This document shows, one piece after another, positions 19,559 to 58,363 of a stretch of DNA of 64,000 nt. The notes below the pieces were generated by a model that had not been told where the DNA came from, did not search any database, and worked only from the letters and a program-made list of their open reading frames with translations. The first letter of the stretch is position 1; each line of letters begins with the position of its first letter. Both the position numbers and the translations under genes were made by a program. Source of the DNA: Acidimicrobiia bacterium (GTDB lineage: Bacteria; Actinomycetota; Acidimicrobiia; Spongiisociales; ZC4RG35); contig JANQOU010000012.1 of the NCBI GenBank assembly GCA_028285585.1, positions 62,001 to 126,000 of the forward strand. Reading direction: 5' to 3'.

Positions 19559-20959
19559 GTGAGACTTCGGCTCAGAAGCCCACGCCAACTTGCCCGCTCG
19601 CTCCTTGCCGCGGCGCGCCGCGACAACACGAAAGTCGCCGACTATCTCGAGTCGAAGCCGGAGCAGTGGGAAGCCCTCGCCGAAGCCGCCCCCGGCGACG
19701 CCGCCGACATCCTCGAGCAACTCGAAGAAGAGGATGCAGCGGGGCTGCTCTCCGACCTCGACGCTCCTGAAGCCGCTGAAGTTCTGGAGGAAATCGCCCC
19801 TGAGCTGGCCGCAGAGCTGATCGACGAGGTGCCGCTCGACGATCTCGCGGCAGCTCTGAACGAGATGCCCGCCGAAGCCGCCGCAGACCTGATCGGAGAG
19901 CTGGACGACGAGGTGGTCGAAGACGTCCTCGCCGCCATGGACGACTCGGCTGAGGACGATGTCAGAGGGCTGCTCATATACCCGCCTGACAGCGCCGGCG
20001 GGCTCATGACCACCGAGATCGCCTCCCTCCCTCTCGGCCTGACCACCGGGGAAGCCGTCGAGCGGCTGCGGCAGCTGAACGACGAATACGAAGACCTCTC
20101 ATACATCTACATCGTCGACGACGAGCGGCGGCTCGAAGGCGTGCTGTCGTTCCGGGATCTCGTCTTCAAGCGCCCTGGCTCTCCGCTGGCCGAAGTGATG
20201 GTCCCTCCGATCGCAGTCACCGCCATGACCGACCGGGAAGAAGTCGCCGAGATATGCCAGCGCTATCACCTGCTGGGGGTGCCGGTCACCGACCGCCAAG
20301 GCGTCCTCCTCGGGATGGTGACCAATGACGCCGTCATCGAAGCGGTCCAGGACGAGGCCACCGAGGACTTCGCGGCAGCAGTCGGAGCCGGTGTTGAAGA
20401 GACGGTGTACACCGATGTCGGGGAGTCGTTTCGGATGCGAGCCCCCTGGCTGCTGCTCAACCTGGTGCTGGCACTGCTCATCGCCTGGGTCATCGAGCGG
20501 CAGACCGGGATCATCAGCGCCGAGCCGGTCCTGGCCGCGCTCATGCCCGTCATCGCGTTGCTCGGCGGGAACGGCGGGAACCAGAGCCTCGCCGTCATGA
20601 TCCGCTCACTGGCCACCGACGACGTGCCCTCGATTCAGGTGCCGTCGATCCTCGGGAGACAGGCCGGGGTCGGGGCGTTGAACGGGTTGGTGCTCGCCCT
20701 GGTGTCGGGCGGACTCACCCTGGCCTTGCTGGAACTGGGCGTCTTCAGGTCCAGCTCCGAGCCCGCTGCGGTGGCCGTCGTGGTTGGGATCGCGGCCCTG
20801 GCCAATCTGGTTATCGCCACCGTCTCCGGGGCGGGAATCCCACTGGTGCTGAGACGTCTCGGCCTCGACCCCGCCCTCGCCGCGGCCATCTTCGTGACCC
20901 TGATCACCGATTTGGTCGGGTTCGGCGGCTTCCTCCTGGTAGCGGCAGCGTTGCTATAG
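19559..20959 (+). CDS. mgtE: Magnesium transporter MgtE
   Basis: 466 residues. Layout: N-terminal superhelical domain rich in acidic repeats (about 30-140), a CBS pair (about 145-270) that senses cytosolic Mg2+, then five membrane helices (from about 295). The signature GGNGGNQSLAVMIRSLA in the membrane domain contains the conserved Asn/Gln of the pore family. GTG start with GGGGA seven to eleven bases upstream; TAGCCT about 35 bases upstream suggests a leadered transcript, unusual in this window. Transcription probably ends at the palindromic repeat just after the stop codon. Confidence 0.93.
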   Translation: MRLRLRSPRQLARSLLAAARRDNTKVADYLESKPEQWEALAEAAPGDAADILEQLEEEDAAGLLSDLDAPEAAEVLEEIAPELAAELIDEVPLDDLAAALNEMPAEAAADLIGELDDEVVEDVLAAMDDSAEDDVRGLLIYPPDSAGGLMTTEIASLPLGLTTGEAVERLRQLNDEYEDLSYIYIVDDERRLEGVLSFRDLVFKRPGSPLAEVMVPPIAVTAMTDREEVAEICQRYHLLGVPVTDRQGVLLGMVTNDAVIEAVQDEATEDFAAAVGAGVEETVYTDVGESFRMRAPWLLLNLVLALLIAWVIERQTGIISAEPVLAALMPVIALLGGNGGNQSLAVMIRSLATDDVPSIQVPSILGRQAGVGALNGLVLALVSGGLTLALLELGVFRSSSEPAAVAVVVGIAALANLVIATVSGAGIPLVLRRLGLDPALAAAIFVTLITDLVGFGGFLLVAAALL

Positions 20960-21026
20960 CAAGCCGTCGCGCTGAGCGACACGGGTTGCTATAGCGAGGC
21001 GTGTCGGTCAGCGCGACGCTGTGCAC
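20949..21026. repeat. Intergenic palindromic repeat, copy A (double palindrome)
   Basis: Begins in the last codons of mgtE and runs into the gap before the convergent lipoprotein gene. It holds TTGCTATAGCAA (20951-20962) and a variant TTGCTATAGCGA (20986-20997), ending in CGCTGTGCAC as do the other copies. Arms 20966-20983 and 21000-21017 are 18-base inverted repeats with one mismatch around a 16-base loop holding the second palindrome, enough for a strong bidirectional terminator. Confidence 0.85.
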
Positions 21027-26739: not shown

Positions 26740-26782
26740 CGTTGCTATAGCAACGCGTGGCGCCAGACGTCACGCTGTGCAC
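26740..26782. repeat. Intergenic palindromic repeat, copy B
   Basis: 43 bases between glnE and the VIT gene. It starts with the 16-base palindrome CGTTGCTATAGCAACG and ends CACGCTGTGCAC. Read on the opposite strand it aligns without gaps to copy C (36 of 43 identical). Placed just after the glnE stop, it could end glnE transcription ahead of the separate VIT promoter. Confidence 0.85.
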
Positions 26783-26827: not shown

Positions 26828-27550
26828 ATGAGCCTCGAGTCGGACACGGACTCCACATACACACCTCACATCGGGCAAACACGTCAGTACTGGCGTGACA
26901 TCATCCTCGGAGTCAACGACGGGCTGGTCTCCACCTTCCTACTGGTCGTCGGCGTAGTAGGTGGCGGCCTCGACATCGACAACGTCCTGCTCACCGCGAT
27001 CGCGGGCGCTCTCGCCGGAGCTGTCTCGATGGCTGCCGGCGAGTACCTGGCAACCAAGTCACAGGATGAGGTGCTCGAAGCCGAGTTGACCCTCGAAAAG
27101 GAGCACCTCCGAGACCACAGGGACATGGAATTGGATCAGCTGCGGGAGATGCTGACCAACATGGGCATCGCTTCCGAAGACCTCGAGGCCGTCGTCACCG
27201 CATTCAATCGCTCCGACAAGACGATGCTCAACGCCATGGCCGCCCTCGAGTTCGGAGTGGTCGACTCCCAGCGGCGCAGCCCTCTGCTCGCCATGGCCGC
27301 GTCCGGTGGGCTTTTCTTGGTCGGCTCTCTCCCGTCGGTGCTGCCGTTTGCGCTCGCCTCCAGCAATGCGTCAGCCTTGCTCTGGGCAACGGTGCTGGCA
27401 GCGATCGGCCTGTTCGCCGTAGGTCTGGTGAAAGCGTCCGTGGCTCGAACATCGAAAGTCCGATCCGGTCTCGAGAACCTGGTGATCGCAGGTGTTGGAG
27501 GTGCCATCGCTTGGTTGATCGGATCCGCGGTGGGCTCCACCCTGGCCTAA
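26828..27550 (+). CDS. VIT/CCC1 family membrane transporter
   Basis: 240 residues. VIT1/CCC1 proteins move Fe2+ or Mn2+ out of the cytosol. The family opening YWRDIILGVNDGLVSTFLLVVG (about 18-39) contains the conserved Asp of helix 1; GALAGAVSMAAGEYLATKSQ is the helix-2 block. A cytosolic acidic helical domain with ELTLEKEHLRDHRDMELDQL follows, where family metal-binding Glu residues lie, then three more helices. Five membrane helices in total. ATG at 26828 with TACCAT eight bases upstream; upstream frame is rejected because it begins within repeat B. Confidence 0.9.
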   Translation: MSLESDTDSTYTPHIGQTRQYWRDIILGVNDGLVSTFLLVVGVVGGGLDIDNVLLTAIAGALAGAVSMAAGEYLATKSQDEVLEAELTLEKEHLRDHRDMELDQLREMLTNMGIASEDLEAVVTAFNRSDKTMLNAMAALEFGVVDSQRRSPLLAMAASGGLFLVGSLPSVLPFALASSNASALLWATVLAAIGLFAVGLVKASVARTSKVRSGLENLVIAGVGGAIAWLIGSAVGSTLA

Positions 27551-27557
27551 CAGCTAG

Positions 27558-27623
27558 CACTGTGCTTGCAATTGTTAGCGATAGCGGTAAGCTAGCAAGC
27601 AGTGAACGAAAGCAAGCACAGTG
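27558..27623. promoter_or_regulatory. Promoter and inverted-repeat operator of the XRE regulator
   Basis: A perfect 12-base inverted repeat, CACTGTGCTTGC (27558-27569) and GCAAGCACAGTG (27612-27623), flanks the promoter: TTGCAA (27566-27571), 16 bases, TAAGCT (27588-27593), eight bases, GTG start. The left arm overlaps the -35 and the right arm lies in the first codons. The direct repeat GCTAGCA occurs at 27553 and 27591, with further TAGC units between. This suggests autoregulation, perhaps through looping or two bound dimers. Confidence 0.6.
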
Positions 27624-27967
27624 ATCTCGGAGAGTTCATCCGTCAACAACGGGAGCGCGCCAATCTCTCATTGCGTCGTCTTGCCGAGAAGGCCGAAATC
27701 TCGAACCCTTATCTGAGCCAGATCGAGCGTGGGATACGCAAGCCTTCGGCTGAGATCCTCAAGAACCTGTCCAAGGCACTCGAGATCAGCGCCAACAGCC
27801 TCTACTCGAAGGCCGGCCTGATCGACGACGAGACAGCCGGGCCGACAGTGACAGAGGCGATCGACGCCGACAAGAGACTCAACCCAGATCAGAAGAGAGT
27901 GCTTGTTGACATGTACCGGACACTGATCCGCTCCAACGGATCGGTGCCTGGAGAGCAACAGGAGTAA
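27602..27967 (+). CDS. XRE-family helix-turn-helix regulator
   Basis: 121 residues. An HTH_XRE domain spans about residues 8-68: LGEFIRQQRERANLSLRRLA, then NPYLSQIERGIRKPSAEIL as recognition helix and flank. The rest (about 70-121) is a short acidic helical tail. Target genes cannot be read directly, but the 12-base inverted repeat around its own promoter makes autoregulation likely. GTG start eight bases after TAAGCT. It is followed after three bases by the coiled-coil gene, so the two are one operon. Similar short XRE proteins beside phasin-like genes are found in other actinobacteria; I do not know a defined function. Confidence 0.88.
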   Translation: MNESKHSDLGEFIRQQRERANLSLRRLAEKAEISNPYLSQIERGIRKPSAEILKNLSKALEISANSLYSKAGLIDDETAGPTVTEAIDADKRLNPDQKRVLVDMYRTLIRSNGSVPGEQQE

Positions 27968-27970
27968 GTG

Positions 27971-28423
27971 ATGAAGACCAAGAGTGTTCTCTATGCCGCC
28001 GTGGGTGCGCCAGTGGTGGCTGCCCGCAAGGTGAGCGATCAGTACGACGCCCTCAAAACCAAGGTCGATGAGGAAAGGTCCAGTTACGCAGAGCTGGCAC
28101 AGAAGACCATCGACAGCTGGGCGGTCGAAGGCGAGAAGGTCGTCACCAACGTCCAAGACCGCAAGGTCGTGGAGGAGATCTCATCCAAAGTCGACCTCGA
28201 TCAGGCCAAGGAGCAGGTGACACGGCTGCGCGACCAGCTAGAGGACATGCTCGCCACATGGAGGCAGTCCTTCCGCCCGGAGAAGACCGAGAGCGAAGAA
28301 GTCGTGGTGGAAGTTTCCGCCGACGAAGCAGTGCCTGCCGCCGAAGAGGCCACAGCCGAGCCAGTCGGCGACGACGTCGCCGAAGACACGGCTATCGAAG
28401 AGGAGCCTGTCGAGGTTTCCTGA
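27971..28423 (+). CDS. Coiled-coil protein with acidic C-terminal tail
   Basis: 150 residues. N-terminal short hydrophobic stretch (LYAAVGAPVVAARKV), then a long amphipathic helical region (about 20-105) with heptad-like spacing, VDEERSSYAELAQKTIDSWA and VDLDQAKEQVTRLRDQLEDM. The last 40 residues are almost entirely Glu, Val, Ala and Asp. The pattern recalls phasin or heparin-binding-haemagglutinin-like helical proteins, but identity is not established. AGGAG lies six bases before the ATG at 27971; a GTG one codon upstream is also possible. Co-transcribed with the XRE regulator. Confidence 0.75.
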   Translation: MKTKSVLYAAVGAPVVAARKVSDQYDALKTKVDEERSSYAELAQKTIDSWAVEGEKVVTNVQDRKVVEEISSKVDLDQAKEQVTRLRDQLEDMLATWRQSFRPEKTESEEVVVEVSADEAVPAAEEATAEPVGDDVAEDTAIEEEPVEVS

Positions 28424-28447
28424 CCAACCCCAACTCACTCGAGACGG

Positions 28448-28471
28448 GAGGGTCCCTCTGAAGGGGCCCTC
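28448..28471. terminator. Intrinsic terminator between convergent genes
   Basis: GAGGGTCCC-tctgaa-GGGGCCCTC forms a 9-bp stem with one G-T pair and a six-base loop, followed by TTGTCGTTT. It lies between the coiled-coil gene (plus) and the DUF4332 gene (minus) and could serve the plus-strand operon. Confidence 0.65.
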
Positions 28472-28479
28472 TTGTCGTT

Positions 28480-42644: not shown

Positions 42645-42687
42645 GTGCACAGCGTGTCGCCTGACGCGACCGCTTGCTATAGCAACG
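42645..42687. repeat. Intergenic palindromic repeat, copy C
   Basis: 43 bases between convergent SDR and MaoC genes, starting GTGCACAGCGTG and ending in TTGCTATAGCAACG. It matches copy B on the opposite strand at 36 of 43 positions. Together with bases to 42698 it forms an imperfect hairpin of about 20-base arms (CTGAC...GTCAG) centred on the palindrome; the right arm runs over the maoC stop codon. Likely a bidirectional terminator. Confidence 0.85.
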
Positions 42688-58255: not shown

Positions 58256-58363
58256 AACCTCAGGTAATAACGCCCGTATCTGGTAGCTATGGCCTCAAGT
58301 TGCCAGTGGGCTCTTTGAACGCGAGGCCATAGGGCCCGTATTCGGGCGTTATTACCTGAGGTT
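58256..58363. repeat. 108-base inverted repeat with 41-base arms
   Basis: Arms 58256-58296 and 58323-58363 are inverted copies: the outer 21 bases (AACCTCAGGTAATAACGCCCG) are identical, the inner 20 differ at seven positions. A 26-base loop separates them. The right arm covers the last codons and stop (TAA TAA) of the endonuclease-IV-like/LigD-like gene. It may be a strong terminator, or a small terminal-inverted-repeat element that inserted at the gene end. No clear target-site duplication is seen. Confidence 0.8.

Follow-up and report, generated by a model that had tools for sequence, protein, structure and literature searches.

Our comparison of a regulator gene and its downstream neighbor across Actinomycetota indicates that the pair very probably encodes a fat-droplet coat protein together with the switch that controls it. 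To this reading, a lipid-droplet coat operon of the MLDSR-MLDS (TadA/HBHA) kind with the mechanism proposed below, we assign a probability of roughly 0.85. The window analyzed (the whole stretch of 64,000 nucleotides) belongs to a 2.59-Mb genome in 14 contigs, and most of its nearest relatives with names are metagenome assemblies labeled Acidimicrobiia or Actinobacteria. An initial annotation, made from the sequence alone, had described an autoregulated two-gene unit related to granules, the envelope or stress, and of unknown role. Autoregulation would agree with the conservation of the pair and its upstream box and with the same arrangement in Rhodococcus MLDSR-MLDS, from which it is carried over by analogy. 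Among the three guesses, granule was well chosen, as the Rhodococcus counterpart is experimentally a lipid-droplet operon; the role called unknown is thus known in relatives.

Features of the regulator-partner locus, with positions counted from the first letter of the window
Feature	Position	Strand	Remarks
VIT1-family protein gene	ends 27550		upstream neighbor of the XRE regulator gene
GCTAGC half-site	27553..27558	+	11 bp upstream of the GCTTGC of the box; read from sequence
Left arm of 12-bp inverted repeat, CACTGTGCTTGC	27558..27569	+	only its GCTTGC (27564-27569) is conserved
Conserved 16-bp near-palindrome, GCTTGCAATTGTTAGC	27564..27579	+	putative operator box of MLDSR-box type, over the -35
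Putative -35 element, TTGCAA	27566..27571	+	conserved position
Putative -10 element, TAAGCT	27588..27593	+	8 nt before the GTG start
XRE-family regulator, MLDSR/Rv0474 type	27602..27967	+	121 aa; GTG start; no cysteine; HTH_3 match
Right arm of inverted repeat, GCAAGCACAGTG	27612..27623	+	within regulator codons 4-8
AGGAG, likely ribosome-binding site of the partner	27960..27964	+	overlaps the 3' end of the regulator gene; read from sequence
Partner, TadA/HBHA/MLDS-like helical protein	27971..28423	+	150 aa from ATG
Acidic tail of the partner	28274..28420	+	49 residues (K1 R1 D4 E14), net -16; no PAKKA/AKKP repeats; predicted disordered
Terminator-like hairpin	28443..28476	+	15-bp stem, 4-nt loop, -28.4 kcal/mol, z -4.07

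The regulator, which matched HTH_3 in a profile search (9.5e-15), has one strong copy in the window genome. For the partner, the program-made list of open reading frames begins at a GTG at 27968; we used the ATG three bases further on, which AGGAG precedes by six bases. The hairpin behind the partner gene was not listed by a consensus terminator scan. The tblastn table of the gene pair and the box scan cover loci retrieved owing to a regulator or a partner match; 60 loci were compared at order level, 16 of which repeated the same places, leaving 44 distinct loci. After removal of two weak XRE matches (L002 and L003), regulator and partner adjoined in 44/44 distinct loci, and the partner was also present in all 30 loci retrieved via the regulator alone. 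Beyond the order, the regulator profile retrieves the gene preceding HBHA-like genes in Mycobacteroides, Mycobacterium, Amycolatopsis and Streptomyces. This adjacency was observed directly in mycobacterial relatives (L178 and L190), and Rv0474 and Rv0475 (HBHA) adjoin in M. tuberculosis as well.

The partner core aligned with the proteins encoded at the same place in these four genera (hhalign probability 97%, E 8e-11, 105 columns). The relationship is carried by profiles only, as pairwise tblastn gave no match at 1e-3 between the partner and the mycobacterial, Amycolatopsis and Streptomyces loci. Searches of Pfam and NCBIfam returned nothing above cut-offs, Foldseek found no match with the partner model, and PDB sequence matches were discarded because they look like chance or low complexity. 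The partner carries the N-terminal hydrophobic stretch and the helical coiled-coil core of the coat-protein kind, with helices predicted at residues 3-62, 65-73 and 76-101 at modest confidence (pLDDT 66.6) and a disordered tail; given its low global confidence (pTM 0.28), the model was used for helix content only. The description of a helical protein with a strongly acidic tail behind the regulator therefore holds.

Sequence conservation identifies the 16-bp box, rather than the longer inverted repeat that overlaps it, as the putative operator. A box matching at least 12/16 positions was found in 44/44 order-level loci (9/880 shuffles). Among wider loci, its presence follows the coat-gene neighbor: it occurred in 79/87 loci without an mshA-like downstream gene and in 0/16 mshA-linked homologs (2/103 shuffles). 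From this wider count, L163 was excluded for its shortness and L084-L088 because they had been counted before; some five named copies of loci from the order remain in it. In the 16 boxless loci (L089, L094, L099, L101, L106, L113, L121, L128, L129, L133, L154, L167, L176, L181, L187 and L189), several of which belong to named Acidimicrobiia relatives, the regulator homolog is followed by a glycosyltransferase that we take, by motif, to be mshA-like. Upstream regions of the loci carried GCTTGCAATAGTTAGC or a near form just before the regulator start. An exact GCTWGCNNNNGYWAGC occurs at one site in the 2.59-Mb genome, the box itself, which fits a dedicated autoregulator; a wider regulon was rejected, there being no second exact site. 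Allowing up to one mismatch gave 21 forward and 22 reverse matches, where the backwards control had 118 and 112, and three of the near-matches sit in an unrelated repeat element. The published Rhodococcus MLDSR box, GNT(T/A)GCTNNTGCTANC, has 12 fixed positions, of which the window box fits 10, a weak fit on its own because 8 places in the window match it that well. Mycobacterial and related loci fit at 9-12/12 fixed positions, and one genome of the same phylum fits at 12/12.

The box lies over the -35 of what appears, from conservation, to be a leaderless promoter. In 42/44 loci, a script recovered TTGCAA separated by 16-19 bp from TANNNT, with an in-frame start 1-10 bases beyond the latter (several starts compete in some); the remaining two, L018 and L054, show the same layout by eye, with CATGAT as the -10 in L054. 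A consensus promoter scan of the window called no promoter; hence, the leaderless promoter claimed earlier, bracketed by the repeat, stands on this layout and is visible through conservation only. In mycobacterial loci, the box is farther from the start codon, so leaderlessness is not universal.

The initial annotation had singled out a perfect 12-base inverted repeat with 42-base spacing, and the arms are indeed exact. The TAGC units it mentioned are likewise present, four in 27551-27625, the sole place in the window with four per 75 bp. Such a repeat arose by chance in 1/2000 local shuffles (27501-27650). Over the 64 kb, two perfect repeats of at least 12 bp (loop 3-100) were found against 0.78 expected, and 6/40 shuffles had as many, so that, taken by itself, the 12-bp match lacks significance at the scale of the window; the only other one with a loop of up to 100 lies at 58256-58267 / 58352-58363 (AACCTCAGGTAA). 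As an operator, the complete repeat was ruled out, as it is found in 1/44 loci, namely the window itself. Its inner GCTTGC...GCAAGC, at 41-43 bp spacing, is retained in 19/22 loci of the window's family and 0/22 loci of other families, so that conservation in relatives extends to these halves and not to the full 12 bp. The GCAAGC half covers codons 4-6 of the regulator gene. There, the serine of an SK motif is encoded by AGC in 22/22 loci bearing the motif, compared with 48/226 serine codons in ten window ORFs (binomial P = 1.6e-15, shared ancestry ignored), and the lysine codon of the motif showed no bias in these loci. Given that the inner halves and the AGC codon are kept, the first reading had caught part of the true control region. 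Several relatives carry upstream GCTAGC/GCTAAC half-sites comparable to that of the window.

A separate repeat was observed elsewhere in the window: the 12-bp palindrome TTGCTATAGCAA at 20951-20962, 26742-26753 and 42674-42685, and with one mismatch at 20986-20997. The genome holds 60 copies (0 for the backwards control), many of them paired 35 bp apart in a GTCGCGCTGAC-rich element, and the 33 other genomes of the family hold 0; it looks like a lineage-specific REP-like repeat.

The regulator and its partner co-occur with the triacylglycerol (TAG) synthase WS/DGAT. Across 296 Actinomycetota genomes, 94 had both the regulator and WS/DGAT, 8 the regulator only, 21 WS/DGAT only and 173 neither, although some genomes scored positive for the regulator through an mshA-linked copy. 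For the partner at order level (59 genomes), the corresponding counts were 37/4/7/11 (Fisher P = 9e-5), a link that weakens with stratification by family (permutation P = 0.038). At family level (34 genomes), 26 had both, 6 had neither and 1 + 1 were discordant, the two discordant genomes being 75% complete. The window genome has WS/DGAT. Within the window's own family, the six genomes with neither all belong to genus g11 (G010, G023 and G364-G367). Joint absence was also observed in family f6, where none of the eight genomes sampled has the partner or WS/DGAT.

The tail of the window partner sets it apart. Among the 44 loci, 41 partner tails are net positive, two short tails carry -2 and -3, and the window tail carries -16; three partners are cut by a contig end, and second, weak partner matches (L215 and L216) were left out of these statements. 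Five further family members have positive tails. The window tail contains no AKK/AKA/AKT triplet and so lacks the C-terminal lysine-rich PAKKA tail of TadA/HBHA/MLDS. In Rhodococcus MLDS, the lysine tail is reported to bind DNA, and lysine-to-glutamate changes in it to abolish binding (PMC5504291); HBHA without its tail is described as failing to bind lipid or to complement the mutant (PMC6176652). MLDS thus requires its lysine tail to bind DNA, and HBHA requires its own to bind lipid; the lack of such a tail here counts against the coat-operon reading, and the HBHA result speaks against the window protein keeping every function. By analogy with MLDS, the partner probably forms a droplet coat whose tail does not bind DNA. 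It is conceivable, and we put it forward tentatively, that it is a natural charge-swapped droplet coat, in which the lysine tail became acidic while regulator, box and droplet link stayed as in the ancestor; coating droplets and tethering the genome would then have become separate, or basic partners would now be recruited by the acidic tail.

A more mundane explanation of the tail is an assembly frameshift that hides a true lysine-rich end. The strongly acidic tail is unique among the 44 loci, and the genomes compared include no other from the window's genus. Neither of the other frames, however, reads PAKKA-like repeats; both pass the acidic-frame stop and end within or beyond the hairpin, whereas the acidic-frame stop lies 19 bases ahead of it, so that we consider an artifact quite unlikely. 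Alternatively, the pair could act at the envelope or cell surface, as an adhesin or DNA-binding unit comparable to surface HBHA, and its regulator could sense stress or copper, as has been reported for Rv0474. By profile, the partner is a distant HBHA-type homolog, and Rv0474 has been described as copper-responsive (PMC10961391, PMC10884836). Such a role is nonetheless improbable: an acidic tail stands where a lysine-rich one would bind heparin or DNA, the window regulator has no cysteine, and the M. smegmatis homolog is reported to lack the copper motif (PMC10884836). The window regulator contains one histidine.

The partner might also be a phasin and the regulator a sensor of polyhydroxyalkanoate (PHA). 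Regulator homologs have a PhaC match no more than 2 kb away in 8/10 phylum genomes that hold both, so the wider regulator family does serve PHA-synthesis loci. For the window, a PHA-granule system is very unlikely, as PhaC_N (PF07167) had no match in its genome, the regulator occurs in 10/50 PhaC genomes but in 94/115 WS/DGAT genomes, and near phaC the box reached at least 12/16 in 1/9 loci examined. PhaC therefore has no link to the regulator comparable to that of WS/DGAT. The phaC-near homologs (L238-L245, in genomes G087, G102, G155, G327, G341, G323, G240 and G273, the last with a weak PhaC match) suggest a wider storage-granule regulator family. At L238, 68 bases separate a perfect 16-bp palindrome, GCAAACTATAGTTTGC, a possible diverged operator, from the aligned start of the XRE gene downstream of it. 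These PHA-granule regulator/phasin modules, with homologous XRE genes near phaC in 8 genomes, share the logic of a granule-sensing autoregulator, for which PhaR is a parallel; they differ from the window in the storage polymer and in mostly lacking the conserved box. Finally, a small HTH_3 regulator adjoining a small partner, with weak NCBIfam matches to antitoxin families far below cut-offs, recalls a toxin-antitoxin pair or some other generic two-gene unit of the XRE type. We give this a negligible chance, given that the pair is conserved over the order with the same layout over the phylum, has one strong copy in the window genome and co-occurs with the TAG synthase, and that the partner has no toxin family match.

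The proposed lipid-droplet coat operon finds its closest model in Rhodococcus jostii RHA1. There, too, an XRE gene directly precedes a coat gene in one operon with a 16-bp box in the promoter region, and the proteins belong to the same families by profile, with intermediate relatives (PMC5504291). MLDSR is reported to bind two motifs upstream of mldsr-mlds, to activate at low and repress at high protein/DNA ratio, and to be held on lipid droplets (PMC5504291). MLDS is described as a TadA/HBHA homolog, and HBHA as acting in lipid inclusions (PMC6176652, PMC10699116); the window partner is likened by description to TadA of Rhodococcus opacus, a droplet protein of the heparin-binding family that controls droplet size and shape (PMC10699116). 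Unlike the R. jostii operon, the window has an apparently leaderless promoter and an extra half-site in the regulator's first codons, and its partner is shorter than MLDS, with an acidic tail devoid of PAKKA repeats. Mycobacterial Rv0474-HBHA (Rv0475; PMC6176652, PMC10961391) likewise has the regulator followed by a helical partner and an upstream box, GCTTGCAAAAGTTAGC or near, and differs in a start codon well downstream of the box, a methylated, lysine-rich HBHA tail and a reportedly copper-sensing Rv0474.

Following this model, the XRE protein would bind the 16-bp box over the -35, assisted by neighboring GCTWGC half-sites, one within the regulator's own first codons, and would repress or tune a single leaderless promoter from which both genes would be transcribed as far as the hairpin. 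As triacylglycerol droplets form, the regulator would be pulled onto their surface and the promoter freed, so that more coat protein would be made and the droplets covered. With an acidic tail in place of the lysine-rich one, the coat protein would coat and size droplets and should not tether DNA via its tail. The gene pair, box, promoter geometry, TAG synthase link and tail charge are comparisons made here; binding, autoregulation, sequestration on droplets and the coat role would follow the Rhodococcus precedent, and conservation of the pair, box and TAG link supports that transfer.

The known occurrences of MLDSR-MLDS are in a few genera, oleaginous and pathogenic, and the same pair and box now extend to Acidimicrobiia, Streptomyces, Amycolatopsis and others. 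An extension to further actinobacteria is no surprise, since the Rhodococcus paper already mentions putative homologs in other actinobacteria (PMC5504291); none of the papers covered by our literature search links heparin-binding hemagglutinin with Acidimicrobiia. Because the pair is absent together with the TAG synthase, we argue that ancestrally it served to store lipids, not to adhere or to sense copper, and regulators beside phaC suggest that one regulator family serves two storage granules. With its acidic tail, the window protein resembles the published mutant in which lysine-to-glutamate changes abolished DNA binding, and may thus offer a way to ask whether the droplet role needs DNA tethering.
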